DNA of 64,000 bases from Beijerinckiaceae bacterium (GTDB taxonomy: Bacteria > Pseudomonadota > Alphaproteobacteria > Rhizobiales > Beijerinckiaceae). Within the stretch, counting starts at the first letter, position 1; each line of letters opens with the position of its first letter. The notes below the pieces were generated by a model. That model worked only from the letters and a program-made list of their open reading frames with translations. It was not told where the DNA came from and ran no database searches. The position numbers and the translations under genes were made by a program. Below, in pieces: positions 4,648 through 20,043 of the stretch. The DNA lies in assembly GCA_947475995.1 (NCBI GenBank), contig CANJNI010000013.1, positions 1 through 64,000 on the forward strand, in the 5' to 3' direction.

Positions 4648-6135
4648 CTAATCGTGCTTTTCGTCGGAAGAGATGAAATGGTCTTTCGCAACGGCGCTTT
4701 CGCCGCCCGCAAGATCTTTCAGGATGAACCGGATGTCCTGCGAGCGCGGCGGGTGTGAATCCGCTGCGATCGAAACGAGGATGCGCGACTCCAGCGTCTG
4801 GTCTGGACCGACCTTGATCACCGGCCAACCGTCCGGGCCCTTCTGGGCTCCGACAACCTCCAGATGCGCCGCATCAAACCGGTCGAGGCGGATCGAGAAT
4901 TCACGCGCGCCGCCGTACTTGTTCGCGACACGCAATGTATAGGCGTTGCGGATCGAACCGTCGGACAGGCGCACGAAAAGCGGATTGCGATCGTGCAGGA
5001 TCGAAAGGCTGATCGAACTGCGAGTCACCAGCGCGTAAAGCATCACCACGCCGATGACGGCGATCAGCCCCGCATAGAGGATCGTGCGGGCACGAACCAT
5101 TTTCACGGGCAGCTCGGGCTTGCATTCCTGGCGGCGCTTCACGATGATGTCGGTGTCGTAACCTATGAGCCCCGTCGGCCGACCGATCTTGGTCATCACG
5201 CTGTCGCAGGCGTCAATGCAAAGGCCGCACTGGATGCAGTCGATCTGCAGGCCGTCGCGAATATCGACGCCGGTCGGGCAGACATTGAAGCACTGGTTGC
5301 AATCGACGCAATCGCCGGCGGGCTTTCCGGCCGTGCGCAGCACCGCAGCTTTCTTCACGGAGCCGCGCGGCTCGCCGCGATCATAACGATAGGTGACGTT
5401 CAGGGCCCACTCGTCCGTAAGCGCCGCCTGAATGCGCGGCCACGGACACATATAGGTGCAGACCTGCTCGCGCATGTGCCCGGCAAAAAAGTAGGTCGTC
5501 ACCGTGAGAATGAGGATCCACAGATAAGCCGTGAAGGGCGCGCTGAAAGTGGCGAGTTCATAAACCAGCGTCGGCGCATCGGTGAAATAGAGCACCCAGG
5601 CGCCGCCCGTCCACCAGGCGATCATCAGCCAGCCCCAGTGCTTCAGGGTGGCCCGCGCGAAACTCTCCAGATTCCAGGGCTTGTCGGCGTTCTGCATCCG
5701 CTCGCGGCGGTCGCCTTCCGTCAGGCGTTCGATCCACAGGAACAGATCGGTCCAGACCGTCTGCGGGCACAGATAGCCGCACCACAGACGGCCGGCGACC
5801 GCGTTCATCAGGAACAGGGTCAGCGCCGCGATGATCAGCAGACCGGTGAGATAATAGAATTCCTGCGGCCAGATTTCGATGAAGAAGAAATAGAAGCGCC
5901 GATGTTCCAGATCGACCAGCACCGCCTGCGAGGGCGCATCGAGGCCGCGGTCCCAGCGCGCGAAAGGCAGAAAGTAATAGACCCCAAGGGTCAGAAACAG
6001 GATCGCCCACTTGATGTTGCGAAACCGGCCCGCGACGTTTTGCGGATAAATTTTCTGCCGGGGCGCATAGAGCGGGGTTTCCACCCCGCTCTGCTCCAGA
6101 GCTGCTTCGCGCGCCTGGATTTGCTTGACGCTCAT
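4648..6135 (-). CDS. ccoG: CcoG/FixG, polyferredoxin-type assembly factor
   Basis: 495 residues. Several membrane helices in the first half are followed by a double ferredoxin-like region, CVDCNQCFNVCPTG and CIQCGLCIDAC, then another helix and a C-terminal Ig-like periplasmic domain (DUF3483/FixG_C type). CcoG is a membrane iron-sulfur protein needed for cbb3 maturation, reported to act as a Cu(II) reductase in the copper delivery chain. A further Cys-containing stretch (MREQVCTYMCPWPRIQ) is conserved in the family. It is the first gene of the ccoGHIS group, starting 36 bases after the ccoP stop. Confidence 0.95.
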   Translation of the reverse strand: MSVKQIQAREAALEQSGVETPLYAPRQKIYPQNVAGRFRNIKWAILFLTLGVYYFLPFARWDRGLDAPSQAVLVDLEHRRFYFFFIEIWPQEFYYLTGLLIIAALTLFLMNAVAGRLWCGYLCPQTVWTDLFLWIERLTEGDRRERMQNADKPWNLESFARATLKHWGWLMIAWWTGGAWVLYFTDAPTLVYELATFSAPFTAYLWILILTVTTYFFAGHMREQVCTYMCPWPRIQAALTDEWALNVTYRYDRGEPRGSVKKAAVLRTAGKPAGDCVDCNQCFNVCPTGVDIRDGLQIDCIQCGLCIDACDSVMTKIGRPTGLIGYDTDIIVKRRQECKPELPVKMVRARTILYAGLIAVIGVVMLYALVTRSSISLSILHDRNPLFVRLSDGSIRNAYTLRVANKYGGAREFSIRLDRFDAAHLEVVGAQKGPDGWPVIKVGPDQTLESRILVSIAADSHPPRSQDIRFILKDLAGGESAVAKDHFISSDEKHD

Positions 6136-6171
6136 GTCGTCACACTTTCTGCATGCATTCCGAGGTGGCGG

Positions 6172-7056
6172 CTACTTGCCGCCACCCAACGTGTGTACAT
6201 AAACGGTCAGCGCCTTGATGGTAGTATCGTCGAGGCGATCCACCCATGCAGGCATCACATTGCCGCGTCCGTTCGTGAGGCCTTCGACGATCGTCGCCTT
6301 GTCGCTGCTCCACAGCCAGATCTTGTCGGTCAGGTTGGGAGCGCCTGTCTCGACATTGCCCTTCCCGTCGGAGCCGTGACACGCCGCGCAATTCTCCTCG
6401 AAGATCTTTGCGCCGGCGGCCTTGTCAAAGCTCGCTTCGGTGGAGAGGCCGGAGAGCGAGCGCACAAAATCCGCAACTTGCGAGACTTCGGCGCTCTTCA
6501 GGATGCCGTCGCGGCCGAAAGCCGGCATCGAGCCTTCACGCCCCTTTGGATGACCGGAGCGAATCCCGAAGGCGATTGTCTGCTGGATGTCTTCGGCCTT
6601 GCCGCCCCACAGCCAGTCGTCGTCGTTGAGATTCGCGAAGCCCTTCGAGCCGCCGCCGCCGGCGCCGTGGCACGGAGCGCAATTGTCGCCGAAGGCCGCC
6701 TTGCCTTGCGCGCGCGCAAAGGTCAGCAGTTTCGGGTCCCTTTCAATATCGGCCAGCGATGCGCCGCCGAGCGCCGACACCATCGGACCGCGCAGCGCCT
6801 TCAGCGCGTTGAGTTCCGACGCCACATCGCCGCGCGACGACCAGCCGAACATGCCCTGCGTGAAGGACGAGATCATCGGAATGGCCGGATAGACGAACAC
6901 ATATCCGACCGACCAGACGATCGTGGCGTAGAGGATGACCAGCCACCACCGCGGCAGCGGCGTGTTGAGTTCCTGAATGCCGTCCCATTCATGGCCGGTT
7001 GTGGCTGTCCCGGTGTGGGAGTCCACCATTTTGACGTTTGGATTCGTGCTGGACAT
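6172..7056 (-). CDS. ccoP: CcoP/FixP, dihaem cytochrome c subunit of cbb3 oxidase
   Basis: 294 residues with one N-terminal membrane anchor (residues ~36-58) and two c-type haem sites, CAPCH and CAACH. Each is followed by the distal Met of a class I cytochrome fold (SMPAFG and NVMPAW). CcoP carries electrons from the bc1 complex or soluble cytochrome c to CcoO and CcoN. It follows ccoQ after six bases, in the standard ccoNOQP order. Confidence 0.97.
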   Translation of the reverse strand: MSSTNPNVKMVDSHTGTATTGHEWDGIQELNTPLPRWWLVILYATIVWSVGYVFVYPAIPMISSFTQGMFGWSSRGDVASELNALKALRGPMVSALGGASLADIERDPKLLTFARAQGKAAFGDNCAPCHGAGGGGSKGFANLNDDDWLWGGKAEDIQQTIAFGIRSGHPKGREGSMPAFGRDGILKSAEVSQVADFVRSLSGLSTEASFDKAAGAKIFEENCAACHGSDGKGNVETGAPNLTDKIWLWSSDKATIVEGLTNGRGNVMPAWVDRLDDTTIKALTVYVHTLGGGK

Positions 7057-7061
7057 TGTTT

Positions 7062-7211
7062 TCAGTCCTCTCTCAACGGGAGGTTGGCGGCCTCATCGAA
7101 GCTGTTCTTGGACGCCGGCCACATCGCATACAAAACGATGAGGCTGAACGTGGCGACCATGCCGATCAGGCTCCACACTTTTGCACTGTAGAAAAAAGTT
7201 GCGAGATCCAT
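7062..7211 (-). CDS. ccoQ: CcoQ/FixQ, small cbb3 oxidase subunit
   Basis: 49 residues, MDLATFFYSAKVWSLIGMVA and onward, with one membrane helix and the conserved tail FDEAANLPL. The frame is open further upstream, but ATG 7211 is preceded by a good GAGGAG and gives the family length. CcoQ stabilises the interaction of CcoP with the CcoNO core. It lies between ccoO and ccoP. Confidence 0.93.
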   Translation of the reverse strand: MDLATFFYSAKVWSLIGMVATFSLIVLYAMWPASKNSFDEAANLPLRED

Positions 7212-7221
7212 GGCGAACTCC

Positions 7222-7950
7222 TCAGCGCAGGTTGGCCTTGTCGTCATAGATCTTGAAGTCGACCAGCGTGCCGAGCATCTGAAGATACGCGATCAGCGCA
7301 TCCGCTTCCGTCACGGCGCCCGGACGACCATCAAAATTACGCGCGATGACTTTAGGATAGCGCGCGGCCAGATCGCCCGGATCTTCATCCGAGGCCTGCG
7401 CCTTCGCGTCCGCAGCCGCCTTCGTGATCATGTCGGCCGTATAGGGCGTGCCCTCGAGAGCCAGGACGTTCATGTCCTCGCCGAGATGCGACACATCCAG
7501 TTCGGTCTTCGCAAGCCACGGATAGGACGGCATGATCGATCCGGGAACGAGCGAGCGCGGATCCGCCAGATGCTGGCGATGCCATTCGTCCGAATATTTT
7601 GCCCCGACGCGGGCAAGGTCCGGCCCGTTGCGCTTGGAACCCCACTGGAAGGGGTGATCGTACATACTTTCCGCAGCGAGCGAGTAATGACCGTAGCGCT
7701 CCACTTCATCGCGCAGCGAACGGATCATCTGCGAATGGCAGGTGTAGCAACCTTCCCGCACATAGATGTTGCGGCCTGCCAGTTCGAGCGGCGTGTAGGG
7801 CCGCAGGCCCTCCACCTTTTCAATGGTGCTCTTCAGATAGAAGAGAGGGAGAATTTCGACGAGACCGCCGATCGAGATCATCACCAGAACGCCGATGATG
7901 AGGATGATCGAGTTCTTTTCGAAGATCGCGTGCTTTTGCCAGAGTGACAT
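7222..7950 (-). CDS. ccoO: CcoO/FixO, monohaem cytochrome c subunit of cbb3 oxidase
   Basis: 242 residues with an N-terminal membrane helix ([20 protein letters not shown]), one haem c motif ([14 protein letters not shown]) and a distal Met in GSIMPSYPW. The partner sequences [14 protein letters not shown] and [16 protein letters not shown] are family hallmarks. CcoO is the first electron acceptor next to the catalytic subunit. It starts 11 bases after the ccoN stop, so the two are co-transcribed. Confidence 0.97.
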
Positions 7951-7961
7951 TGCCTGTCTCC

Positions 7962-9656
7962 TTATTCGGCCGGCACGAGGGACGGATTGCCCAGCGGCGA
8001 TTCAGCCGGTTCGGGCGAAGCGATGGTCTTGTAGATGTTCCACACCATGATCAGCGTGCCGGCGAGGAACAGGCCGCCGCCGATGGCGCGGATGATGTAG
8101 AAGGGGTGCATCGCATCCACGGTTTCGATGAACGAATACTCAAGGAAGCCCAGGGCCGTGTAGGCGCGCCACATCAGGCCCTGCAGGATGCCCGCCACCC
8201 ACATCGACGTGATGTAGACCACGATGCCGATGGTCGAGACCCAGAAGTGCCAGTTGACGAGCTTCAGGGAGTAAAGACCCTTGCGGCCCCACAGCCACGG
8301 AACCAGGCAGTAGATCGCACCGAACGACACGAAGCCGACCCAGCCGAGCGCGCCCGAATGCACGTGCCCGATGGTCCAGTCCGTATAGTGCGACAGCGAG
8401 TTGACGACCTTCACGGACATCAGCGGGCCCTCGAAGGTCGACATGCCGTAGAAGGCGATCGACACGACCAGCATGCGCAGAACCGGATCGGTGCGCAACT
8501 TGTCCCAGGCGCCCGAGAGCGTCATCAGACCGTTGATCATGCCGCCCCACGAAGGCATCCACAGCATGATCGAGAACACCATGCCGAGCGTCTGCGCCCA
8601 GTCAGGCAGCGCCGTGTAATGCAGGTGATGCGGACCGGCCCAGATATACATGAAGATCAGGGCCCAGAAGTGGATGATCGACAGCCGGTACGAATAGACC
8701 GGACGACCTGCCTGCTTCGGCACGAAATAGTACATGATGGCCAGGAAGCCTGCGGTCAGGAAGAAGCCCACCGCATTGTGGCCGTACCACCATTGCACCA
8801 TGGCGTCCTGCACGCCCGACCAGACGATGTAGGACTTCGGCGAGAAGATCGACACCGGAACGGTCGTGTTGTTGACGAGATGCAGAACCGCAATCGTCAC
8901 GATGAAGGCGATGTAGAACCAGTTCGCCACATAGATATGCGGCTCCTCGCGCTTCCAGATGGTCGCCAGGAACACCAGCAGATAAACCACCCAGACAACC
9001 GTCAGCCACAGGTCCGAATACCATTCGGGCTCGGCATATTCCTTGCCCTGCGTGATGCCGAGCAGATAGCCGGTGCCGGCAATGACGATGAACAGATTGT
9101 AGCCGAGCACCACGAACCACGGCGCCAGATCGCCTGCAAGGCGCGTCCGGCAGGTGCGCTGCACCACATAGAAGGATGTCGCCAGCAGCACGTTGCCGCC
9201 GAATGCAAAAATGACCGCAGAGGTATGCAGCGGACGCAGACGACCGAACGATATCCACGGCAGGTCGAAGTTCATTGCCGGGAATGCGAGCTGCAGTGCG
9301 ATGATCAGGCCGACCAGAAATCCAGCCACGCCCCAGAAGAGGGAGATCAGCGTGGAGAATTTGATCGGTCCATAATTGTAGTTTGGTTTACCGTCGATGA
9401 ATTGCGCCGGCGGCGCCGCATCGCGGTTCATGTAACGGTTGCCGATCGCAAAGACAGCCGCGATGCTGGCCGCTGCGAACACATAAGCATGAAAGGCATA
9501 TTCAGGCGTGTAGGCCTTGGCGGCCACATAAATCGAGAAAAATGCCATCAAAACAGCCGCAAGCCCGAGTCCGAGCTCGCCGACGGTAAGTGATTTCCCG
9601 ACCGCGCCGGGTCCACCGGACCCGCCTTTTGCCGGGATGGTTGCTGATTGAGCCAT
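7962..9656 (-). CDS. ccoN: CcoN/FixN, catalytic subunit of cbb3 cytochrome c oxidase
   Basis: 564 residues from ATG 9656, with about twelve membrane helices. Haem and CuB ligands are visible in [40 protein letters not shown] and [14 protein letters not shown]. The open frame continues upstream to 9755, but that stretch is charged and covers the FNR box, so [12 protein letters not shown] is taken as the start. CcoN reduces O2 with high affinity and pumps protons, supporting microaerobic respiration. It is the first gene of the minus-strand run ccoNOQP-GHIS-A, controlled by the box at 9755-9768. Confidence 0.96.
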
Positions 9657-9754
9657 ATCGGAACGCCCCAAAATGTCGCAGGCGCAGGCGCGACTCGGTC
9701 CTCGAGCCCGCTTCGACTGCCCATCGACCTTCGCGGGTGCAGCATGGGGGGACA

Positions 9755-9768
9755 TTGATTTGCATCAA
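9755..9768 (-). promoter_or_regulatory. FNR/FixK-type box upstream of ccoN
   Basis: The sequence TTGAT-TTGC-ATCAA is a perfect match to the consensus TTGAT-N4-ATCAA. Its centre lies about 105 bases upstream of the ccoN ATG, which fits an activated class II promoter with a leader of roughly 60 bases. An FNR-type regulator is encoded at 39036-39782. Binding is inferred. Confidence 0.85.
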
Positions 9769-9923: not shown

Positions 9924-10175
9924 GTGAAAACAGTTATTCGCAAGCTTATTGAGCAACATGGTCGGCTTCCGGTCGCGATGTCCACGCTTGCCGACGGTCA
10001 GGACCTTTATGCAGCGGGCCTGACGTCCTTCGCGGCTGTCCAGCTCATGCTCGGCCTGGAAGAAGCTTTCGACGTGGAATTTCCCGAGCGGATGCTTAAC
10101 CGCAAGTCATTTTCCAGCATCGACGCGATTGCAGCCTGCATCGCCGAAATCGCACCGCAGAAAGCAGTCGCCTGA
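9924..10175 (+). CDS. Acyl carrier protein, partner of the aa:CP ligase
   Basis: 83 residues beginning at GTG 9924 behind AGGAG. The fold is a four-helix carrier protein with the phosphopantetheine site in LYAAGLTSFAAVQ (Ser35), followed by the recognition helix LMLGLEEAFDVEFPE. It is not the fatty-acid AcpP, which has the DSLD core. The next genes begin two and four bases after one another and include an amino acid:[carrier protein] ligase. The likely role is therefore to hold an amino acid as a thioester on its 4'-phosphopantetheine arm. A phosphopantetheinyl transferase is not encoded in this window. Confidence 0.85.
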   Translation: MKTVIRKLIEQHGRLPVAMSTLADGQDLYAAGLTSFAAVQLMLGLEEAFDVEFPERMLNRKSFSSIDAIAACIAEIAPQKAVA

Positions 10176-10176
10176 C

Positions 10177-11346
10177 ATGACCCGAAATTCCAACCTGCTG
10201 GACCGCGCAGCGGATGCTGCGGCGGTCGCGGCGAAATATTGCGACGAGGTCGACGCCCAGTCGCGCTTCCCCACCGAAGCCATGCAGGCTTTGAAGGACG
10301 CGCGCCTGATGGGCATCATGATCCCGCGCGATCTGGGCGGCGAGGCCGCCAGCCTTCGCGACATCGCCGAAGTCTGCGCACTCCTCGGTCAGAACTGCGC
10401 CTCGACCGCGATGGTCTACGCGATGCACCAGATCAAGGTGTCCAGCGTCGTGTCTCACGGGGCCGATCATCCCTGGCATCGCGCCTTCATGGCCTGCATC
10501 GCCTCGCAGCAATTGCTGCTGGGCTCCTCCACCACGGAAGGCGGCGGCATCGGCGGCGACCTCGGCAATTCCATCTGCGCCATCGAGCGCGATGGAGACG
10601 AGTTCACCCTGCGCAAGGACGCGAGCGTCATTTCCTATGCAACGCAATGCGACGCCATTCTGGTGACAGCCCGCCGCGCACCCGACGCGCCCGGTTCGGA
10701 CCAGGTCATGGCCACTCTTCTCAAGAGCCAGTACACTCTCGAAAAGACGGCCGAGTGGGATACGCTCGGCATGCGCGGCACTTGCAGCGAGGGCTTCATT
10801 TTTGAAGGCCGCGCGCCGGCCGAGCAGATCATGCCGCAGCCTTTCGCCGAAATCGCCGCACGTTCGATGCTTGCGCATGCCCACCTTCTGTGGGGCGCGC
10901 TGTGGTACGGCATCGCCGCCAACGCGGTGTCGCGTGCGCAGTCCTATGTCCGCGCCGAAGCCCGCAAGAAGCCCGGACAAAACCCCGTCGGGGCGCTCCG
11001 CGTCGCCGAGGCCGCAAGCATGTTGCAGCTCATGCGCTCCAGCCTCAACGCGGGTCTGGAACGTTTCGAGAAGGCGCAGCTCGCCAACGACGATCTCAAC
11101 TCCATGAGCTTCGCCATCGACATGTGCAATCTCAAGATCGGCTCGTCGCGACTGCTCAACGACATCGTCCAGCAGGCCATGATGGTCTGCGGCATCAACG
11201 GCTACAAGAACGGCACGCCCTACAGCCTCGGCCGTCACATGCGCGACGCCATGTCGGCGCCGCTGATGATCAACAACGACCGTATCTTCGGCAACACATC
11301 CAACATGCTGCTCGTGCATCGTCTCGACCAGCGGCTTGCGAGCTGA
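10177..11346 (+). CDS. Acyl-CoA dehydrogenase-like flavoprotein
   Basis: 389 residues from ATG 10177, one base after the carrier-protein stop. The acyl-CoA dehydrogenase fold is recognisable: an N-terminal helical domain, a middle beta domain (GSSTTEGGGIGGDL) and a C-terminal helical domain with CGINGYKNGTPYSLGRHMRD. The usual catalytic Glu of the YEGT motif after RDA is missing; the equivalent stretch reads AMSAPLMINNDRIFGNTS. The substrate may be a thioester on the neighbouring carrier protein rather than on CoA. It could oxidise it, as prolyl-carrier-protein dehydrogenases do, or act as a flavin monooxygenase of the same fold. Function is inferred from family and context. Confidence 0.8.
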   Translation: MTRNSNLLDRAADAAAVAAKYCDEVDAQSRFPTEAMQALKDARLMGIMIPRDLGGEAASLRDIAEVCALLGQNCASTAMVYAMHQIKVSSVVSHGADHPWHRAFMACIASQQLLLGSSTTEGGGIGGDLGNSICAIERDGDEFTLRKDASVISYATQCDAILVTARRAPDAPGSDQVMATLLKSQYTLEKTAEWDTLGMRGTCSEGFIFEGRAPAEQIMPQPFAEIAARSMLAHAHLLWGALWYGIAANAVSRAQSYVRAEARKKPGQNPVGALRVAEAASMLQLMRSSLNAGLERFEKAQLANDDLNSMSFAIDMCNLKIGSSRLLNDIVQQAMMVCGINGYKNGTPYSLGRHMRDAMSAPLMINNDRIFGNTSNMLLVHRLDQRLAS

Positions 11347-11349
11347 CCC

Positions 11350-12261
11350 ATGTGCGAAAACTGCACCACTTTCCGCAAGGGCCTCTTTGCGCATCGCCTG
11401 CTGATCGAAACCGGCGTCGACGGTCTTTACGGCCGCGGCGGCGTCTTTGAGGATGTGATCCACCGTTTCGACAACCTCATCACCTCCTTCGGTGGAGCTG
11501 ACGGGGCGGAGGTCGTGCGCTTCCCGCCAGGCATGAACCGGGCGCTGTTTGAGAAAAGCGGCTATCTGAAGAGCTTTCCGAACCTTGCCGGAACCATCCA
11601 CGCCTTCAACGGCAACGACAAGGACCACGCGGCCCTTCTCGAAAAGCTGTTCGCCGGCGAGGACTGGACCTACGGTCAGGAGGCGACCGACATCGTTCTC
11701 GCTCCCGCAGCCTGCTATCCACTCTATCCGACGGTCGCCCAGCTCGGCGCATTGCCGGAAGACGGACGCCTTTATGACCTCCAGTCCTATTGCTTCCGTC
11801 GCGAGCCTTCGCAGGACCCTGCACGCCAGCAGTTCTTCCGCATGCGCGAATATGTGCGCATTGGTTCGCCCGAACAGGTCACCGAGTTCCGCCAGACCTG
11901 GCTCGATCGTGGACGCGAACTGATCGCAAAGCTCGGCGTGCCGTTCGACGTTGATGTGGCGAACGACCCGTTCTTCGGTCGCGCGGGCCGCATGCTGGCC
12001 AACAACCAGCGCGACCAGAAGCTGAAGTTCGAACTTCTCGTGCCGATCGAAAGCACCGAGAAGCCGACAGCATGCCTGAGCTTCAACTACCATCAGGACC
12101 ATTTCGGCACACTGTGGGGCATCTCGCAGCACGATGGCGAAACGGCCCACACGGCCTGTGTCGGCTTCGGCATGGAACGCGTCGCACTGGCGCTCTTCAA
12201 ACATCACGGCTTCGAGGTCGAAAAATGGCCCTCCCCCGTCCGAAAAGCCCTCTGGGGCTGA
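11350..12261 (+). CDS. Amino acid:[carrier protein] ligase (class II aaRS-like)
   Basis: 303 residues. This is a class II aminoacyl-tRNA synthetase catalytic core, like atypical seryl-tRNA synthetase, without a tRNA-binding arm. Motif 2 is [11 protein letters not shown] and motif 3 is [12 protein letters not shown]. Candidate zinc ligands are C122 (AACYPLYP), E167 and C270 (AHTACVG). They keep a constant offset of nine from the Cys131/Glu176/Cys279 set I recall for the Bradyrhizobium enzyme Bll0957. Known: such ligases activate glycine or alanine with ATP and load it onto a dedicated carrier protein, not tRNA. Context: the carrier protein is two genes upstream. Which amino acid is used cannot be read here. 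Confidence 0.9.
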
Positions 12262-13244
12262 TCTCCGACACGGTCATTCCGGGCCTCAATCATGCGTCGT
12301 ATCGTCAGCATAGTCTGCACGATGCGACGCGCGACTGGCCGGAAACCAATTGCTACGTCGATCTGTGGATCGAGGTGCTGAACAGTCTCGGGCGCTCGCC
12401 CGAAGCTGGGCTGGCCTTCACGCTCGCGCAGGATTTTGAGGGCGACCACTTCACGTTCTTCAAGTATCCCCTCGAGGATCTGGCGGCGCTCTACGGCGTG
12501 AGCGTGACAGAACTGGCGATCTACGACAGTGTCGAAAGCCACGTTGCGGAACAGATCGCGCGCGGCCGCATGGCGCTCGTCGAAGTGGACGCATTCTATC
12601 TTCCCGACACGCGCGGCGTCTCCTACGGGGTCGAACATTCCAAGACGACCATCGCGGTCAACAGGCTCGACCGAGTGGGCCGCAGCGTGGACTACTTCCA
12701 CAATGCGGGTTTCTTCACCCTCGACGGCGAGGATTACGACGGCGTCTTCCAGCGCGAGGGCCATATCTCCAAGCGCCCCGACACTCTTTTCCCCTATGTG
12801 GAATTTGTGAAGATCGGAGCAGGCGAGGCTTCGCCCGAAGACTTGCGCAGGACCTCGCTGGATCTCATGCGCCGCCATCTGGCATTGGCCCCGCGCGAGA
12901 ATCCCGTGCGTTCCTTCGCGGCGCGGTTGAATGAAGACATCCACTGGCTGATCCAGCGCGATCCGGCCTTCTTCCACAAATATGCGTTCAATACGCTGCG
13001 GCAGGTCGGCGCCAATTTCGAACTGCTTGGCTCGTATCTCGACTGGCTCGCCCAACAGGGCGAAAGTGGCCTGATCGAGCCGCGCGACACAGCACGCGCC
13101 ATCTCGTCGGGCGCGAAGACCATGCAGTTCCAGTTGGCGCGCGCCGTCAATCGCAAGCGCACCGAAGGCCTTCCGGCCATGCTGGACGGCATCGCGTCTG
13201 CATGGGACCAGACGCTCGGCGCGCTTCGCAGCCGCTACGCCTGA
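12225..13244 (+). CDS. DUF1839 family protein, putative papain-like acyltransferase
   Basis: 339 residues from ATG 12225, overlapping the ligase by 37 bases, so translation is probably coupled. Family DUF1839 is recognised from [18 protein letters not shown] and [18 protein letters not shown]. The pattern of a Cys (C43) at the head of a helix, then a strand VEVDAFYLP, then His (H138, [12 protein letters not shown]) resembles the BtrH N-terminal family, whose member BtrH moves an acyl group from a carrier protein to an aminoglycoside. I infer an acyltransferase taking the aminoacyl group from the carrier protein. The remote homology is my reading and not proven. Confidence 0.75.
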
Positions 13245-13252
13245 GCAAACAC

Positions 13253-15706
13253 ATGCGCATCCGTTTCCCGAATGCGCCTGCCGAAACGATTGCGGCGGGC
13301 TGGACCTTTACCTCCAGCCCGCCGGATCTTTATGCATCGCCGACCCACATTGCGCCGGATGCGGAATGGCTGCCCGCCATCGTACCCGGCACGGTCGCCG
13401 CTTCATTGCGCGCACTGGGCCGTTTCGACGTCGATCAACCGACGCCGCTTGAAGACAAGGACTTCTGGTTTCGAGCGACCATCGAAGGCGACGGGGAGGA
13501 ATCCCTGCGCTTCCTGGGCCTCGCCACCATCGCGCAGGTCTTTCTCGACGGCGTGAGGGTGCTCGACTCAACCAGCATGTTCGTCGAATCCGAATGCAAT
13601 GTTGCGCTGAATGGCAGACACGAACTCGCCATCTGCTTCCGCGCGCTCGGCCCCTTGCTGGAAAAGCCCGGCAAGCGCGCGCGCTGGCGCCCGCGCAATG
13701 TCACGCCATCGACCTTGCGCGCCTTCCGCACAACCTTTCTGGGACATGTGCCCGGATGGTGCCCGCCCGTTCACCCCATCGGCCCTTGGCGCGCCATCGA
13801 GCGGCGCAAGGGCGCATGGGCAGAATGCGATCTGGACGCTGCTCTGGTTGACCGTGACGGACGCTTGCGCGTCACGCTGACTTTCGATGCGCCTCCTGCT
13901 GGACACGTCTCGGTCGAATGCGCCGGAGAGCAAACGCAACTCGCCCGGACGCAGGCAGGCGCCTTTAGCGGCGAACTTATCATCCCGAACGTCAAGGCCT
14001 GGTGGCCGCACACCCATGGCGAACCGGTTCTGCATGACGTGTTTTTAGTGGTGAACGAGACGCGTTACGCCATCGCCCGCACAGGGTTTCGTCGCATCGA
14101 GCTTGATCGCGATGCGGACGGAAAAGGCTTCGGACTGCGCGTCAACGGCGTGCCGGTTTTCTGCCGCGGCGCTGTCTGGACAAATGCCGATGTGGTCGCC
14201 CTGCCCGGATCGCGCGAGGACTACGCGCCATTGCTCGACCTTGCGCGGCAGGCCGGCATGAACATGCTGCGCGTCGGCGGCACGATGGTCTATGAAGCCG
14301 ACGCCTTTTACCGGATGTGCGACGAGCGCGGGATTCTGGTCTGGCAGGACTTCATGTTCTCCAATTTCGACTATCCGGCGAACGACGACGCCTTTGTCGA
14401 ACTTGTCCGCACTGAGGCGAAGCAATTCGTCGCGCGCACAAAAGTCAGTCCATGCATCGCGGTCTTCTGCGGCGGCAGCGAAGTCGCCCAGCAGGCCGCC
14501 ATGCTCGGCCTTCCATCGGCATCGTGGTCGAACCGCATTTTCGACGATGTGCTGAAATCCGTCGTGCAAGAAAACAGATCGGACGCCATCTATGTGGAGC
14601 ACACGCCCCACGGCGGTCCAATGCCCTTCTACATGTCGGAAGGCGTCTGCCATTACTATGGGGTCAGCGCCTATTTCCGCCCCGTTGAAGACGCCCGACA
14701 GGCGAATGTGCGGTTCGCCGCCGAATGTCTGGGCCACGCCCATGTGCCGGACGCTGCGCATGTCGAACTCGAACCCGATGCGCCGCTCGTCGTTCACGCC
14801 CAATATGCCGACCGGGTTCACAACGATTCCGGCTCGACGTGGTGGTTCGATCACATCCGCAACCACTATGTTCGCGAGCTTTACGGGATCGACCCGGAAG
14901 CGGCACGGCGCGCGGACGCCGATCATTTTCTCGACCTTTCCCGCGCCACCACGGCGGAACTTCTGGAATCGGTCTATGCGCTCTGGCGTCGGCAGGGCTC
15001 TCCGACACGCGGCGGGCTGGTGTGGTTCCTGCGCGACCTGCGCGAAGAGGCCGGATGGGGCGTCATTGACGGGCTGAACCAGCCGAAAGCCGCCTGGTAC
15101 GCCCTGCGCCGCGCTTTCCGTCCCGTGCAGGTCCTGCTGATCGACGAGGGCCTCAACGGTCTCGACGTCCACTGCATCAACGAAACCGCGCAGCAGATCC
15201 CGGCGCAGCTCGCCCTGACCTGCCTGCGCGACGGTGCGGTGCCGGTGATGCGCGCGGCGCGCGAGCTGACGCTTGCGCCGCGCAGCAGCATCAAGATTCC
15301 CGCCGTCGATCTCTGGGGCGCCTTTTTCGACACGTCCTATGCGTATCGCTTCGGCCCTCCTTCGCACGACGTCACGGTCGCAACGCTGACGACGCAGGGC
15401 GCAGAAGCAGAGGCCTTCCATTTCCCGCTCGGGCGCGGCGCAGAGCGGCATGATCTCGGCCTGCAAGCCGAACTCATTGCTGATGAGCATGGCTGGTCAT
15501 TGCGTGTCTCCACCGCGCGCCTGGCGCAATCCTTCCATGTGCGCGATGCGCATTACCGGCCGGACGACAACTGGTTCCATCTGCCGCCAGCGACCACGCG
15601 CATGCTTCGCCTCAGCCCGCGAGACTCCGCCCATTCCGCCAGGCCGCGCGGCCTTGTTGCAGCAGTAAACGGCCGCGACTGCGTCGCTTACGGGGACGAC
15701 GCATGA
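13253..15706 (+). CDS. Glycoside hydrolase family 2-like protein (beta-mannosidase type)
   Basis: 817 residues from ATG 13253. Domains in order: a jelly-roll sugar-binding domain (to ~residue 190), an Ig-like domain, a TIM barrel (~300-580: FCRGAVWTNAD, NMLRVGGTMVYE, ILVWQDFMFSNFDYP) and a C-terminal beta region. The acid/base Glu is kept at E410 in FCGGSEVA, but the Asn before it, almost invariant in this clan, is Ser. The nucleophile candidate is E491 (FAAECLG, matching the SEFG motif). No signal peptide is seen, so it should be cytoplasmic. It starts eight bases after the DUF1839 stop and overlaps the next gene by ATGA. It may remove or bind a sugar on the pathway product; that is inference. 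Confidence 0.75.
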   Translation: MRIRFPNAPAETIAAGWTFTSSPPDLYASPTHIAPDAEWLPAIVPGTVAASLRALGRFDVDQPTPLEDKDFWFRATIEGDGEESLRFLGLATIAQVFLDGVRVLDSTSMFVESECNVALNGRHELAICFRALGPLLEKPGKRARWRPRNVTPSTLRAFRTTFLGHVPGWCPPVHPIGPWRAIERRKGAWAECDLDAALVDRDGRLRVTLTFDAPPAGHVSVECAGEQTQLARTQAGAFSGELIIPNVKAWWPHTHGEPVLHDVFLVVNETRYAIARTGFRRIELDRDADGKGFGLRVNGVPVFCRGAVWTNADVVALPGSREDYAPLLDLARQAGMNMLRVGGTMVYEADAFYRMCDERGILVWQDFMFSNFDYPANDDAFVELVRTEAKQFVARTKVSPCIAVFCGGSEVAQQAAMLGLPSASWSNRIFDDVLKSVVQENRSDAIYVEHTPHGGPMPFYMSEGVCHYYGVSAYFRPVEDARQANVRFAAECLGHAHVPDAAHVELEPDAPLVVHAQYADRVHNDSGSTWWFDHIRNHYVRELYGIDPEAARRADADHFLDLSRATTAELLESVYALWRRQGSPTRGGLVWFLRDLREEAGWGVIDGLNQPKAAWYALRRAFRPVQVLLIDEGLNGLDVHCINETAQQIPAQLALTCLRDGAVPVMRAARELTLAPRSSIKIPAVDLWGAFFDTSYAYRFGPPSHDVTVATLTTQGAEAEAFHFPLGRGAERHDLGLQAELIADEHGWSLRVSTARLAQSFHVRDAHYRPDDNWFHLPPATTRMLRLSPRDSAHSARPRGLVAAVNGRDCVAYGDDA

Positions 15707-17424
15707 CGCCCATCACGTTCCACAATCGCTTCGGCTGGCTGCATGAAGCCTCCGGCTCCACGGGCGTCCTGCTCTGCGGCGCGCAGGGCTACGAACAGCT
15801 TTGCGCCCAGAAGGCTTGGCGGCTGCTGGGCGACAGGATCGCGCAAAGCGGCTTCCCGGTCCTGCGTTTCGATTATGGCGGCGCGGGCGACTCCCTCGGA
15901 AGCGATCGCGATCCCGACCGGCTCGACGACTGGCTTGCATCGACCCGCATGGCGATCGCCGAATTGAAGGAGCGCACCGGCGTCGACAGGGTCATCCTGC
16001 TCGGCCTCCGCCTCGGCGCATCGCTGGCCGCGCAGGTGGCCAGCGAAGATGGCGACGTGGCGGGACTGGCGCTGCTCGCTCCGGTCGCAAGCGGCCGCGC
16101 CTATGTGCGCGAACTGTCGGTGCTTGTGAAAATGCAGGCGCAGGCCGTCACGCGCCCCGCTGACGTCCCCGAAGAACCGGGCCTCGAAGTGCAGGGCTTC
16201 TGGCTCTCGCCGCAGACGCAGGAATCCCTTCGGGCGGTCGATCTGACGAAGCTGCAGAAGGCCCCGGCCCCAAAGGTGCTGCTGGTTGCGCCGGACGAGC
16301 ACACGAGCGCAGAATCCGTCGCCAGCCATCTGGAAGGGCTCGGATGCGAAGTTCAGCGCGCGCCCTTCGTTCAATACGCGCAGTTCATCGCCGAACCCAC
16401 GTTCTCGCGCCTGCCCGAAGAAGCCATCGCGAGCGTGACGCAATGGCTCGAAACCCATTTCGCGGACGGGGCCAACACAGCGCCCGCGCCGGTGATCGCC
16501 GAGGAAGACGTCATAACGGGCGCGCATTTCATTGAGGAGCCGATTAGCTTCGGGCCCGGCCGCGCCCTCTTCGGCATGTTGTGCATGCCCAAGGCGCCTG
16601 CGCCGGGCGCGCCCACGCTGGTTTACGTCAACGCTGGCGCCAATCCGCATATCGGCTGGGCGCGCATGACAGTCGACAACGCGCGCGCCTTTGCCGCAAT
16701 GGGCGTCTCGTCCTTCCGGATGGACGTGGCGGGCCTTGGCGACAGCGCGCCCATTCCGGGCCGCAAGAGCCAGATCATGTATTCCCTCGAAACGATCGAG
16801 GATGTGAAAGCGGCTCTGGATCTGCTGGCGGCGCGCGGCTACTGCAATTTTCACATGGTCGGCCTGTGCAGCGGCGCTCATCTCGCGTTCCATACAGCCG
16901 TGGCGGACACCCGCATTCAGGGGCTTGTGATGGCCAATCTGCAGAAATTCATCTGGCAGGACGGCTATTCCCTCGAGATCGCGGTGCGCAGCACCTACAG
17001 GTCCAACACCTTTTACAAGGGACAGGCCTTGCGGGCAGAAACCTGGCGGCGGCTGCTGCGTGGCGAGATCGACGTTCTGGGCATCGCCAGGGCGGTCAGC
17101 CAGCGGTTGCTGCGCCTCGTGATGGCGCGCGGCGAGGCCCTGGCCGGTGCGCTCAACATTGGCCCGCCGAACGACGTGACCAAGGTCAAACGCGGCTTCC
17201 GCGCGGTGAGCGGACGCGGCGGCCGATTCCTTCTCGTGTACAGCTCCACCGACGGCGGCCTCGATGAAATCGCGCAATATATGGGAGCGGGCGGCAAGCA
17301 GGTGGAAGCGCTGCCCGGTTCCCGTTTCGCCATCATCGAGGGCGGCGACCACAATCTGACGCCCCGCTGGGCGCGGGACGCCATGCTGGGCCATATGCGG
17401 GACTTTCTCCTTCCATCGGCATAA
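15703..17424 (+). CDS. Tandem alpha/beta hydrolase with Cys nucleophile
   Basis: 573 residues built of two alpha/beta hydrolase domains, about 1-255 and 280-573. In the first the nucleophile elbow reads GLRLG (Arg103 in place of Ser), so it is probably not catalytic. In the second the elbow is GLCSG with Cys389, followed by D517/D521 and His550 (EGGDHNL), a plausible Cys-Asp-His triad. The elbows GLRxGA and GLCxGA resemble the exosortase-associated hydrolases of PEP-CTERM clusters, but no exosortase is visible. A Cys nucleophile suits thioesterase or acyltransferase chemistry on the carrier protein. The start overlaps the GH2 stop (ATGA) and it is the last gene of the operon. Confidence 0.75.
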   Translation: MTPITFHNRFGWLHEASGSTGVLLCGAQGYEQLCAQKAWRLLGDRIAQSGFPVLRFDYGGAGDSLGSDRDPDRLDDWLASTRMAIAELKERTGVDRVILLGLRLGASLAAQVASEDGDVAGLALLAPVASGRAYVRELSVLVKMQAQAVTRPADVPEEPGLEVQGFWLSPQTQESLRAVDLTKLQKAPAPKVLLVAPDEHTSAESVASHLEGLGCEVQRAPFVQYAQFIAEPTFSRLPEEAIASVTQWLETHFADGANTAPAPVIAEEDVITGAHFIEEPISFGPGRALFGMLCMPKAPAPGAPTLVYVNAGANPHIGWARMTVDNARAFAAMGVSSFRMDVAGLGDSAPIPGRKSQIMYSLETIEDVKAALDLLAARGYCNFHMVGLCSGAHLAFHTAVADTRIQGLVMANLQKFIWQDGYSLEIAVRSTYRSNTFYKGQALRAETWRRLLRGEIDVLGIARAVSQRLLRLVMARGEALAGALNIGPPNDVTKVKRGFRAVSGRGGRFLLVYSSTDGGLDEIAQYMGAGGKQVEALPGSRFAIIEGGDHNLTPRWARDAMLGHMRDFLLPSA

Positions 17425-17548: not shown

Positions 17549-17842
17549 ATGCCGCAAGTCGTCACCGCCAGTCGTCTCGTTGACGGGATCGTGGTTTTCT
17601 GGAGCCACGGCGGCTGGGTCGAATTGCTCGATCAGGCGCAGGTTCTGCAAACGAAGGACGATGTCGAAGCCAACATCAAGAGCGCGCAGGCCGATGTGGC
17701 CGCCAACCTTGTTGTTGACGTTTTCGCGTTCGAGGTGAAGGCGGCTGCGGGCCATGTCGAGGCCGTGACCTTGCGCGACCGCATCCGCACCGCCGGCCCC
17801 ACTGTTCATCGCGACCACGGCAAGCAGGCCGTCGCCCGCTAG
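17549..17842 (+). CDS. DUF2849 domain-containing protein
   Basis: 97 residues, MPQVVTASRLVDGIVVFW and onward. This is the DUF2849 family, found in alphaproteobacteria directly upstream of the siroheme sulfite/nitrite reductase gene, as here (cysI follows after 24 bases). The biochemical function is unknown; a helper role in sulfite reduction is inferred only from the conserved neighbourhood. It is likely the first gene of the DUF2849-cysI-DUF934 operon, downstream of the inverted repeat at 17454-17471. Confidence 0.85.
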   Translation: MPQVVTASRLVDGIVVFWSHGGWVELLDQAQVLQTKDDVEANIKSAQADVAANLVVDVFAFEVKAAAGHVEAVTLRDRIRTAGPTVHRDHGKQAVAR

Positions 17843-17866
17843 ACTCTCCTCCAGCGGAGGTTCCGC

Positions 17867-19540
17867 ATGTATCGTTATGACGAGTTCGACGCCGCCTTCG
17901 TGAAGGACCGTGTCTCCCAGTTCCGGGATCAGGTGGAACGCCGCCTGTCGGGCGAACTGAACGAAGACCAGTTCCGCATTCATCGCCTGATGAACGGTCT
18001 CTACCTTCAGCTTCACGCCTACATGCTGCGCATCGCGATCCCTTACGGAACGCTGTCGTCGCGGCAGATGCGCAAGCTCGCCGACGTGGCGCGACGCTAC
18101 GACAAGGGCTACGGCCACTTCACCACGCGGCAGAACCTGCAGCTCAACTGGCCGGCCCTGAAGGATACGCCCGACATTCTGGCCGAACTCGCCAGCGTCG
18201 AGATGCACGCCATCCAGACGTCCGGCAATTGCATCCGCAACGTTACGGCGGATCATTTCGCCGGCGCGGCCGCCGACGAGATCGATGATCCCCGCCCCTA
18301 TGCGGAAATCCTTCGCCAGTGGTCGTCCATCCATCCGGAATTTTCGTTCCTGCCGCGCAAGTTCAAGATCGCCGTCACCGGCGCAGCGCGGGATCGCGCG
18401 GCCATTCAGGTGCACGACATCGGCTACCAGATCGTCCGCAACAGAGCGGGTGAACCGGGCTTCGCCGTGTGGGTCGGCGGCGGCCAGGGCCGCACACCGA
18501 TGATCGCCAAGAAAATCCGCGACTTTCTGCCGGTCGCCGATCTGCTCGCCTATAGCGAAGCCATCGTGCGCGTCTATAATCTCGAAGGCCGCCGCGACAA
18601 CAAGTACAAGGCCCGCATCAAGATCCTGCTGCACGAAAAGGGCGCGGAGCCGTTCCGCGTGGCGGTCGAGGAAGAATTCGCAGCCCGCAACGACGGCGCC
18701 TTGCGCCTGCCGCAGGCCGAGATCGACCGCATCCACGCCTATTTCGCCCCGCCTGCTCTCAAGGCGCGACTCGCGAAGCCGGAACTGTTCGATGCGCGGC
18801 GGAATGCGGATGGCAAATTCCGTGCTTTCGTGGAGACGAATATCGCGCAGCACAAGATCGACGGTTTCGGCATCGTCACCATCTCGCTGAAGCCCATCGG
18901 GGGCATTCCGGGCGACGCAACGTCCGAGCAAATGGACATCGTCGCCGATCTCGCAGAGCGTTACGGCCACGACGAAATCCGCGTCTCCCACGAGCAGAAT
19001 CTCGTCCTTCCGCATGTGGCGCTCGACGACATTCCGGCCATCTACGACTTCCTGGCCAAGCACGGCCTCGCCACGTCCAACATCGGCCAGATCAGCGACA
19101 TCATCGCCTGCCCGGGCCTCGACTATTGCTCGCTGGCGACCGCGCGCTCCATTCCGGTCGCGCAGCGCATATCGGATCGCTTCGGCGACGGCGAACGCGC
19201 CCATGAAATCGGAGATCTGAAGATCAAGATTTCGGGCTGCATCAACGCCTGCGGCCACCATCACGTCGGCCACATCGGCATTCTGGGCCTGGAGCGCAAG
19301 GGCGTCGAAACTTACCAGATCACGCTCGGCGGTTCGGCCGACGAGAACTGTACGCTGGGCGACATCACCGGGCCGGGGTTCTCCTATGAGGCCGTGGTGG
19401 ACGCGGTGGAAACCGTGGTCGACACATATCTTGGCCTGCGCACGGACAAGTCTGAAGACTTCCTGACGGCCTACCGTCGCGTCGGCATGGCGCCTTTCAA
19501 GGCGGCGCTCTACGAAAAGAATCCCGGAGCAGACATTTGA
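17867..19540 (+). CDS. cysI: Assimilatory sulfite (or nitrite) reductase, haemoprotein subunit
   Basis: 557 residues with the two-fold ferrodoxin-like/4Fe-4S repeat of the NirA/CysI family: GYGHFTTRQNLQLNW and the anion-binding Arg/Lys set in the first half. The 4Fe-4S-siroheme ligands are ACPGLDYCSLA (C-x5-C) and SGCINACGHHHVGHIG (C-x3-C). It reduces sulfite to sulfide with six electrons; nitrite reduction cannot be excluded by sequence. The context with DUF2849 and DUF934 points to sulfur assimilation. The usual partner cysH is absent between cysI and DUF934. Confidence 0.93.
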   Translation: MYRYDEFDAAFVKDRVSQFRDQVERRLSGELNEDQFRIHRLMNGLYLQLHAYMLRIAIPYGTLSSRQMRKLADVARRYDKGYGHFTTRQNLQLNWPALKDTPDILAELASVEMHAIQTSGNCIRNVTADHFAGAAADEIDDPRPYAEILRQWSSIHPEFSFLPRKFKIAVTGAARDRAAIQVHDIGYQIVRNRAGEPGFAVWVGGGQGRTPMIAKKIRDFLPVADLLAYSEAIVRVYNLEGRRDNKYKARIKILLHEKGAEPFRVAVEEEFAARNDGALRLPQAEIDRIHAYFAPPALKARLAKPELFDARRNADGKFRAFVETNIAQHKIDGFGIVTISLKPIGGIPGDATSEQMDIVADLAERYGHDEIRVSHEQNLVLPHVALDDIPAIYDFLAKHGLATSNIGQISDIIACPGLDYCSLATARSIPVAQRISDRFGDGERAHEIGDLKIKISGCINACGHHHVGHIGILGLERKGVETYQITLGGSADENCTLGDITGPGFSYEAVVDAVETVVDTYLGLRTDKSEDFLTAYRRVGMAPFKAALYEKNPGADI

Positions 19541-20043
19541 GCCTGATTTTCAAGGACGGACAATTTGTCGAGGACACCTGGAAAACCGTGCGGACCGGCG
19601 AGGATCTGCCGCCGTCCGGCCATGTGATCGTTCCGCTCGACTGGTGGCAGGCGCAACGCGGCGCGTTCGAAGGTTCGAACGTGCCGATCGGCGTGCGGAT
19701 CGAGCCCGGCGTAAAGATCGAGACCTATGCGGAGGACATTCCGCGCTTCGCTCTCATCGCACTGGCTTTCCCGAAGTTTCAGGATGGACGCAATTTCTCG
19801 ACCGCACAGCTTCTGCGCGAGCGCTACGGCTTTCGCGGCGAGTTGCGCGCCGTCGGCGAGATTCTGCTCGATCAGGTGCAACTGATGGCGCGCTGCGGCT
19901 TCGACACAATGGAAATCAGCGACGCTCCGACGCGCACTGCGCTGCAAGAAGGGCGCGCGCTGCGCATCTCGCATTTCTATCAACCGAGCATTGCTGCGGA
20001 AGCGCCTGTCGGCACCCGCCCCTGGCTGCGCAAGCCGGCCTGA
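19537..20043 (+). CDS. DUF934 domain-containing protein
   Basis: 168 residues from a TTG start that overlaps the cysI stop (TTGA), a sign of translational coupling. The family is recognised from FALIALAFPKFQDGRNFSTAQLLRER split by short gaps, typical of DUF934 proteins in sulfur-assimilation operons. The C-terminal tail (ISHFYQPSIAAEAP) is usual. Function is unknown; a role linked to sulfite reductase or adenylylsulfate reduction is inferred from repeated co-occurrence with cysI and cysH. Confidence 0.88.
   Translation: MSLIFKDGQFVEDTWKTVRTGEDLPPSGHVIVPLDWWQAQRGAFEGSNVPIGVRIEPGVKIETYAEDIPRFALIALAFPKFQDGRNFSTAQLLRERYGFRGELRAVGEILLDQVQLMARCGFDTMEISDAPTRTALQEGRALRISHFYQPSIAAEAPVGTRPWLRKPA

Follow-up and report, generated by a model that had tools for sequence, protein, structure and literature searches.

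A conserved gene set joining an amino acid:[carrier protein] ligase to a DUF1839 protein of predicted CcbD-like fold in a Beijerinckiaceae bacterium

Introduction

Ligases of the Bll0957 type load amino acids onto carrier proteins (CPs) (Mocibob 2010, 2013, as cited in excerpts of PMC9437257 and PMC2922099). An excerpt of a 2022 review describes the role of this loading as unknown (PMC9437257). Here, we analyze an operon that encodes such a ligase together with a CP, an acyl-CoA dehydrogenase (ACAD)-like flavoprotein, a DUF1839 protein, a GH2 beta-mannosidase-like protein, and a tandem alpha/beta hydrolase. The operon lies in a 64,000 nt stretch of DNA of a Beijerinckiaceae bacterium (assembly GCA_947475995.1, contig CANJNI010000013.1, positions 1 to 64,000), which is called the window throughout.

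Parts of the gene set resemble other described systems. CcbD and LmbD are lincosamide amide synthases, and CcbD forms amides. RedW, an L-prolyl-[PCP] dehydrogenase, and ColB1 (7xp7), a tethered-cysteine dehydrogenase, are ACAD-fold enzymes acting on carrier-bound amino acids. The exosortase-A (XrtA) module combines hydrolases 1 and 2 with an AMP ligase (TIGR03098), a decarboxylase (TIGR03099), and a carrier. The pathway outline itself has a precedent in a 2010 note in proof, reportedly by Aravind, de Souza and Iyer. The outline was already predicted there, and monooxygenation was guessed for the flavoprotein (PMC2922099).

We propose, with a probability of roughly 0.55, that the operon encodes a self-contained aminoacyl-CP pathway that attaches an aminoacyl group through an amide bond to an amino sugar in a surface polysaccharide. 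Within a limited literature search, no paper linking DUF1839 to CcbD was found, and the following points appeared to be new: the CcbD/CtaG/AziU2-U3 fold of DUF1839 with its candidate residues, the five-gene core, the pairing of a dead with a Cys-type hydrolase half and its fusion to a flippase, and the missing dehydrogenase base of the flavoprotein.

Results

Conservation of the gene set

The conservation of the operon was analyzed in 398 genomes drawn evenly across the phylum, with the genome of the window counted among those that contain DUF1839. The ligase family (NF005479) was matched in 44 genomes, 28 of them above the curated cut-off. DUF1839 is present in 16 of the 398 genomes, all of which belong to these 28. 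In 16 of 16, the genes CP-ACAD-ligase-DUF1839-GH2 follow each other in this order on a single strand; the genomes span four family labels (f1, f3, f8, and f66). These five genes are a conserved unit. An earlier reading of the window, made from the sequence only, had posed the alternative of a conserved unit or scattered genes, and the conserved five-gene order rules out a chance neighborhood. Its description of the operon, i.e. six genes on the plus strand with spacings of +1, +3, an overlap of 37, +8, and an overlap of 4 nt, is exact (Table 1).

The tandem hydrolase belongs to the set more loosely. It is the sixth operon gene in the window, as had been stated, but not a fixed one: it was found inside the fetched stretch in 10 of the 16 DUF1839 genomes (window included), sometimes on the opposite strand, and in G255 and G107 it lies on another contig. 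DUF1839 was also found in 59 of 72,556 plasmid records. An A. brasilense plasmid carries all six genes in order, and plasmids of Shinella, R. gallicum, and Caballeronia carry the five-gene core. Two further loci (L004 and L016) start inside or at the ligase, so that the carrier and ACAD genes are beyond view there.

For comparison, we inspected the 12 genomes that have an above-cut-off ligase and no DUF1839. The ACAD gene adjoins the ligase gene in all 12, and a carrier gene is found in 10, in each case on the opposite strand. GH2 was absent from the fetched stretches of these 12 genomes. Another 16 genomes have only a below-cut-off ligase; eight of these loci were fetched, and this ACAD is absent from all eight.

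The proposal that the operon is a thioester module separate from nonribosomal peptide synthetases (NRPSs) is borne out by the lack of matches to the NRPS condensation domain (PF00668) in the assembly, which is 95.87% complete (polyketide synthase genes were not part of the search). Four of 14 control genomes matched PF00668.

Table 1 Coordinates of the operon genes and flanking features in the window
Feature	Position	Strand	Remarks
Carrier protein (CP)	9924..10175	+	GTG start; stand-alone, 83 aa; pantetheine Ser35 codon 10026-10028
ACAD-like flavoprotein (acyl-CoA-dehydrogenase fold)	10177..11346	+	389 aa; ACAD domain matches
Amino acid:[carrier protein] ligase	11350..12261	+	303 aa; core of a class II synthetase, lacking the tRNA-binding domain
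DUF1839 protein	12225..13244	+	339 aa; PF08893; candidate Cys43 codon 12351-12353
GH2 beta-mannosidase-like protein	13253..15706	+	817 aa; GH2 N-terminal domain PF22666
Tandem alpha/beta hydrolase	15703..17424	+	573 aa; alpha/beta-hydrolase matches in both halves; Cys389 codon 16867-16869
Perfect TTGAT-N4-ATCAA box (TTGATTTGCATCAA), presumably FNR/FixK-like	9755..9768	.	between divergent cco-like genes and carrier gene
Divergent gene set, taken to resemble a cbb3 oxidase operon	4648-9755	-	
Downstream genes, taken to resemble sulfite reductase and companions	17549-20043	+	

The DUF1839 protein

The DUF1839 family, to which Atu2574 presumably also belongs, is represented in the window by a protein that matches PF08893 with 424.8 bits (gathering cut-off 22.5). 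Its predicted structure has the fold of CcbD, including the C-terminal helical part; the well-matched folds were CcbD, CtaG, and AziU2-U3 (chain not named). On the basis of this model, we propose that DUF1839 is a CcbD-like papain-fold amide synthase. The previously suggested transfer by DUF1839 to a sugar is thus supported, its structural basis being the modeled likeness to CcbD. The surroundings of the two proteins differ. The partner ligase of CcbD and LmbD is an NRPS A domain and their setting is an antibiotic cluster, whereas the partner here is a synthetase-derived ligase and many DUF1839 relatives sit with polysaccharide genes.

The alignment comprised 86 of the 120 proteins found plus the window protein; from loci with two DUF1839 copies, only the best-scoring copy was aligned, and the others were inspected separately. 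C43, H138, and H159 are invariant and are candidates for the Cys and His of a Cys-His-Glu triad like that of CcbD, assigned without residue-level superposition. Likewise invariant are K298, Q301, A305, and R306, which have a constant offset of 18 from CcbD R316, Q319, R323, and R324, respectively (counted without superposition). A305 mismatches R323 in this putative carrier-binding Arg/Gln row. For comparison, the available part of a 2023 survey assigns the catalytic residues of DUF1839 as C-(T/S)-H, and suggests acyl-CoA-dependent glycan processing (PMC10318531).

The papain-like fold would also fit a hydrolase, and the same survey excerpt places DUF1839 among papain-like proteins (PMC10318531). 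DUF1839 could then be a thioesterase or glycan-peptide peptidase for editing or turnover, with the Cys-type tandem hydrolase, which is fused to a flippase in some genomes (see below), as the real acyltransferase. We consider this quite improbable, because all 16 sampled sets contain DUF1839 but not all contain the hydrolase, and because the model shares the CcbD fold down to the C-terminal helical part.

The carrier protein and the ligase

The carrier matches Pfam PP-binding with 31.2 bits and NF005480 with 113.2 bits (cut-off 72), and Ser35 is one of the columns with at least 97% conservation across 40 rows. The ligase has an NF005479 score of 495.6 bits, far above the curated cut-off of 357. 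Its residues 14-301 align to residues 44-330 of Bll0957 (ligase 1), a core without the tRNA-binding domain, and the E values are 2e-103 for PDB 4h2w (amino acid--[ACP] ligase 1) and 1.1e-98 for 3mey (Bll0957). By the curated cut-off, the window ligase and the Bll0957-type ligases belong to the same family, and they share C122, E167, and C270, which we take to be zinc ligands. These residues had been named correctly before, and none of them varies across the 52 aligned rows, which represent 51 sources because the window is counted twice.

The ligases differ in one loop, presumably the one that recognizes the carrier. The loop of the window ligase is close to that of 4h2w and unlike that of 3mey (GRVGQMKAVSQKQQ). 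The neighborhoods differ as well: the window ligase is accompanied by DUF1839, GH2, and hydrolase genes, whereas loci with the 3mey loop have only the CP, ACAD, and ligase genes of the set. In B. diazoefficiens, bll0957 and the adjoining acd gene bll0958 have a fold change of 3.0 in a phaR mutant, according to an excerpt of a study of microaerobic metabolism (PMC10888616).

A single carrier with its ligase resembles DltA/DltC, and the carrier weakly matches NF003464 (DltC; 25.6 bits, cut-off 68). D-alanine is esterified to teichoic acids, and the aminoacyl group could correspondingly be esterified to polysaccharide hydroxyls instead of forming an amide. Such an O-acylation is highly improbable in our view: the Pfam matches of the six proteins include no DltB-type membrane acyltransferase, and the product of CcbD is an amide.

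The flavoprotein

The structural model of the flavoprotein (predicted local distance difference test, pLDDT, 88) has an acyl-CoA dehydrogenase fold. Among the best 50 matches listed, dehydrogenases, ColB1, and oxygenases lie within about 3 Z units. An assignment of the function from the fold was therefore abandoned, as dehydrogenases, oxygenases, and the KijD3 structure match about equally. The RedW model gives the window flavoprotein only 27.5 bits (cut-off 650).

We inspected the catalytic-base positions in an alignment of 57 of the 120 proteins found plus the window protein; the expected positions were taken from motif and end offsets, not from superposition. We take these bases to be the known catalytic residues of medium-chain acyl-CoA dehydrogenase (MCAD) and isovaleryl-CoA dehydrogenase (IVD). 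In the MCAD region, no acidic residue is found at positions 358-367 in the 58 rows, save one row at 362, and in the IVD region at most three of the 58 rows have one at positions 229-246. Plain oxidation on the carrier, as envisaged in the earlier reading, is not supported, because the usual base positions lack acidic residues; RedW and ColB1 differ from the window flavoprotein in this respect. D368, which is invariant in the 58 rows and lies three residues past the expected MCAD site, could be a substitute base. The flavoprotein likely acts on the aminoacyl-CP, by either dehydrogenation or oxygenation.

The GH2 protein

The best alignments of the GH2 protein are to beta-mannosidases (PDB 5n6u, E 6e-49; 2vjx, E 6e-36). 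Two Glu residues, E410 and E491, presumably have the catalytic roles and are kept in 28 of 28 rows (27 sources, the window twice). Rows below 900 bits were dropped, i.e. L003 and L012, which run off the contig, and L006, which is split; L015 has none. E491 meets a Glu in the alignments with both 2vjx and 5n6u. A signal peptide was not seen by eye.

Polysaccharide genes and transporters near the operon

Polysaccharide genes were searched with 14 seed proteins. The 16 DUF1839 loci of this count represent 15 genomes, as G255 supplies two. Polysaccharide genes were found in 10 of the 16, in contrast to three of 12 ligase loci without DUF1839 and none of eight distant ligase loci. This contrast is biased because the seeds were drawn from positive loci; fairer is the count after exclusion of same-genus seeds, which is 8 of 16. 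In a further set (L118 and the named loci L002-L016), the fraction is 7 of 16. The three stretches of the own genome searched, window included, gave no match, and elsewhere this genome encodes two Bac_transf (WcaJ-type) proteins and one Polysacc_synt protein. In L007-L011 and L013, the hydrolase gene is followed by a WcaJ-like transferase gene in the same orientation, and genes annotated as O-antigen ligase and GumC lie near the Shinella set.

On the R. gallicum plasmid (L127, 643-15539), the five-gene core is located just after nif genes and an annotated exopolysaccharide production repressor gene. This position is a hint at a role in symbiosis. In L074, a gene for an ATP-binding cassette (ABC) transporter with membrane domain (5987-7951, plus strand) is located directly upstream of the carrier gene; it might export a small product. 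In 8 of 25 loci, there are ABC-ATPase genes, which are of mixed types and include importers of branched-chain amino acids (L004 and L067).

Several of these observations fit a different product, namely a small diffusible metabolite. DUF1839 would then join the modified aminoacyl group to a free amine or amino sugar, yielding a lincosamide- or butirosin-like molecule or a signal, and GH2 and the polysaccharide genes would be incidental or act on a sugar of the product. CcbD is a small-molecule pathway enzyme, and CtaG and AziU2-U3 presumably are small-molecule pathway proteins. Near the operon, polysaccharide genes are missing in the window and in several relatives, and the ABC genes as well as the place beside nif genes point in the same direction. 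However, GH2 is in the core of 16 of 16 sampled genomes, the flippase fusion and the sugar-transferase neighbors recur across several lineages, and the ABC genes are of several kinds, with no single conserved exporter. A small-molecule product thus appears unlikely.

The tandem hydrolase

The N-terminal half of the hydrolase is TIGR03101-like (91.2 bits, cut-off 202.75), and the C-terminal half is TIGR03100-like (107.4 bits, cut-off 168.45). It had been regarded as a hydrolase of the Cys type, which holds for the C-terminal half, in which C389 is a Cys in 22 of 22 rows, and not for the N-terminal half. The latter lacks the nucleophile (GLRLG) and has Arg at its position, residue 103, in 16 of 22 rows and Gly in the other 6. 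The 22 rows represent 21 sources, with the window twice; rows below 500 bits were dropped (L077, at a stretch end). The motif G-x-C-S-G-A/G was found in 120 of 120 hydrolase relatives among the matches listed.

A parallel is the hydrolase pair of the exosortase-A module, although the window protein scores below both XrtA hydrolase cut-offs. The comparison covers exosortase-A-type module genes in L119-L123. Hydrolase 2 has Arg at the nucleophile position in three of three cases (L119, L120, and L122), like the N-terminal half, and hydrolase 1 has Cys in four of five (L119, L120, L122, and L123; L121 was not resolved), like the C-terminal half. In L122, the two are fused, as in the window. The decarboxylase TIGR03099 is present in L119 and L122, and carrier-protein matches lie near the hydrolases in L119 and L120 (E about 1e-6) and, weakly and without NCBIfam support, in L122 (4e-4). 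The TIGR03098-type ligase of L122 has 553.5 bits, just under the cut-off of 592.35. The window operon differs from this module in that its ligase has another fold and a decarboxylase is missing, with ACAD, DUF1839, and GH2 instead.

In two sampled genomes, G253 and G043, the hydrolase and a polysaccharide flippase (PF13440) are encoded by a single open reading frame of 1118 and 1111 aa, respectively, and in L069 and L118 a flippase gene is directly upstream of the hydrolase gene. Long PF13440-hydrolase proteins, many of them named Rhizobium, number 46 among the 120 relatives listed of 153; this is a count of fusions and not a frequency, as the candidates were limited to proteins of about 611 aa or more. 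In L078, a sugar-transfer-associated ATP-grasp protein (PF14397) is encoded directly after the tandem hydrolase (18064-19281, plus strand). A second tandem hydrolase paralogue (543.6 bits to the hydrolase profile) is encoded away from the operon on contig C21 of the own genome (L116, 15267-17198, minus strand). The ten C21 proteins scanned, i.e. this hydrolase and nine neighbors, include SUF proteins, DAHP synthase, and solute-binding proteins, and no polysaccharide gene products were among them.

The proposed pathway

The gene unit, the families, the fold of DUF1839, the conserved residues, and the flippase fusion are seen in the sequences and models; for the chemistry, the acceptor, and the product, we infer the following course. 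With ATP, the ligase would activate a small amino acid (glycine or alanine being the probable ones) and transfer it as a thioester onto the carrier. On the carrier, the flavoprotein would then dehydrogenate or oxygenate the aminoacyl group. DUF1839 would take over the group on Cys43 and form the amide by transferring it to the amine of an amino sugar. The acceptor would most likely be a cytoplasmic precursor of a surface polysaccharide, and GH2 would trim or remodel the acceptor glycan. Where present, the tandem hydrolase, with its dead and its Cys half, may be a second acyl-transfer or proofreading enzyme at the flippase.

Several observations weigh against this reading. A profile of 87 DUF1839 sequences had no similarity to CcbD among the PDB sequences (E up to 10), and the DUF1839 copy in the operon has lost the Cys in one genus. 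The profile comparison with BtrH (PF14399) was weak (hhalign probability 0.9 percent, E 0.059; only four BtrH_N proteins); it pairs C43 with C13 and FYLP with FWLP, and was too weak to be used for treating DUF1839 as a BtrH relative by sequence. The flavoprotein lacks the acidic residues of known dehydrogenases, as described above. E410 of GH2 meets a Glu in the 2vjx alignment but not in the 5n6u alignment, the GH2 gene of R. altiplani (L006) is broken into two frames, and none was detected at the R. mesoamericanum locus (L015). With the 14 seeds, no polysaccharide gene was found in the window or in 6 of the 16 sampled DUF1839 loci, and none is annotated near the five-gene core of Caballeronia. 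In addition, Bradyrhizobium-type systems work without DUF1839, so that the thioester may have other fates.

A more elaborate version of the polysaccharide pathway is tentative and, taken as a whole, rather doubtful. In this version, the operon would be a general polysaccharide aminoacylation machine, in which the flavin-modified group supplied by ligase and carrier is joined as an amide to an amino sugar of a lipid-linked repeat by DUF1839, and the tandem hydrolase, fused to the flippase in Rhizobium, couples a further acyl transfer or a check on the decoration to export; in exosortase-A clusters, a different ligase would serve the same pair of hydrolases. If true, the carrier-thioester decoration of exopolysaccharides would be a wide and unrecognized chemistry.

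The amide-forming pathway would give a job to a tRNA-synthetase-like ligase family with no known purpose, and would assign a function to an uncharacterized Pfam domain. It may also add a way for bacteria, including a Rhizobium with the genes beside nif, to decorate surface glycans. The role of aminoacyl-CP loading would become simply assayable through the predicted CcbD-like fold of DUF1839.

Flanking features and ligase loci without DUF1839

The TTGAT-N4-ATCAA box upstream of the carrier gene has one match in the window, compared with 0.05 expected. Of the 38 other loci that have a carrier gene, three (L002, L003, and L005) show the box upstream of it, and L002 and L005 have cco-like genes upstream as well. 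For these reasons, the box was set aside as an operon regulator; it probably serves the cco-like genes. A promoter scan yielded one promoter-like site versus 1.1 expected and was uninformative. The downstream sulfite-reductase-like genes are apparently unrelated to the operon.

Loci L092-L099 represent a distant ligase branch, with about 100-175 bits to NF005479 and without the ACAD. In L095, which has a below-cut-off ligase, a PP-binding carrier gene adjoins the ligase gene. For the ligase and ACAD loci without DUF1839, a scan of eight conserved neighbors gave no group-wide candidate for a replacement transferase. Two DUF1839-free loci, L090 and L091, have the same two gene families after the ligase; the pair scanned in L090 is a Cys/Met pyridoxal phosphate enzyme and a homoserine O-succinyltransferase, which suggests another use of the aminoacyl carrier. 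In L065, L066, L070, and L072, genes of the same three families precede the carrier gene by about 0.2-3 kb. Two of those of L065 were scanned; one encodes a second synthetase paralogue, an EpmA-type EF-P lysine aminoacylase (TIGR00462), and the other a protein resembling lysine-2,3-aminomutase (TIGR03822).
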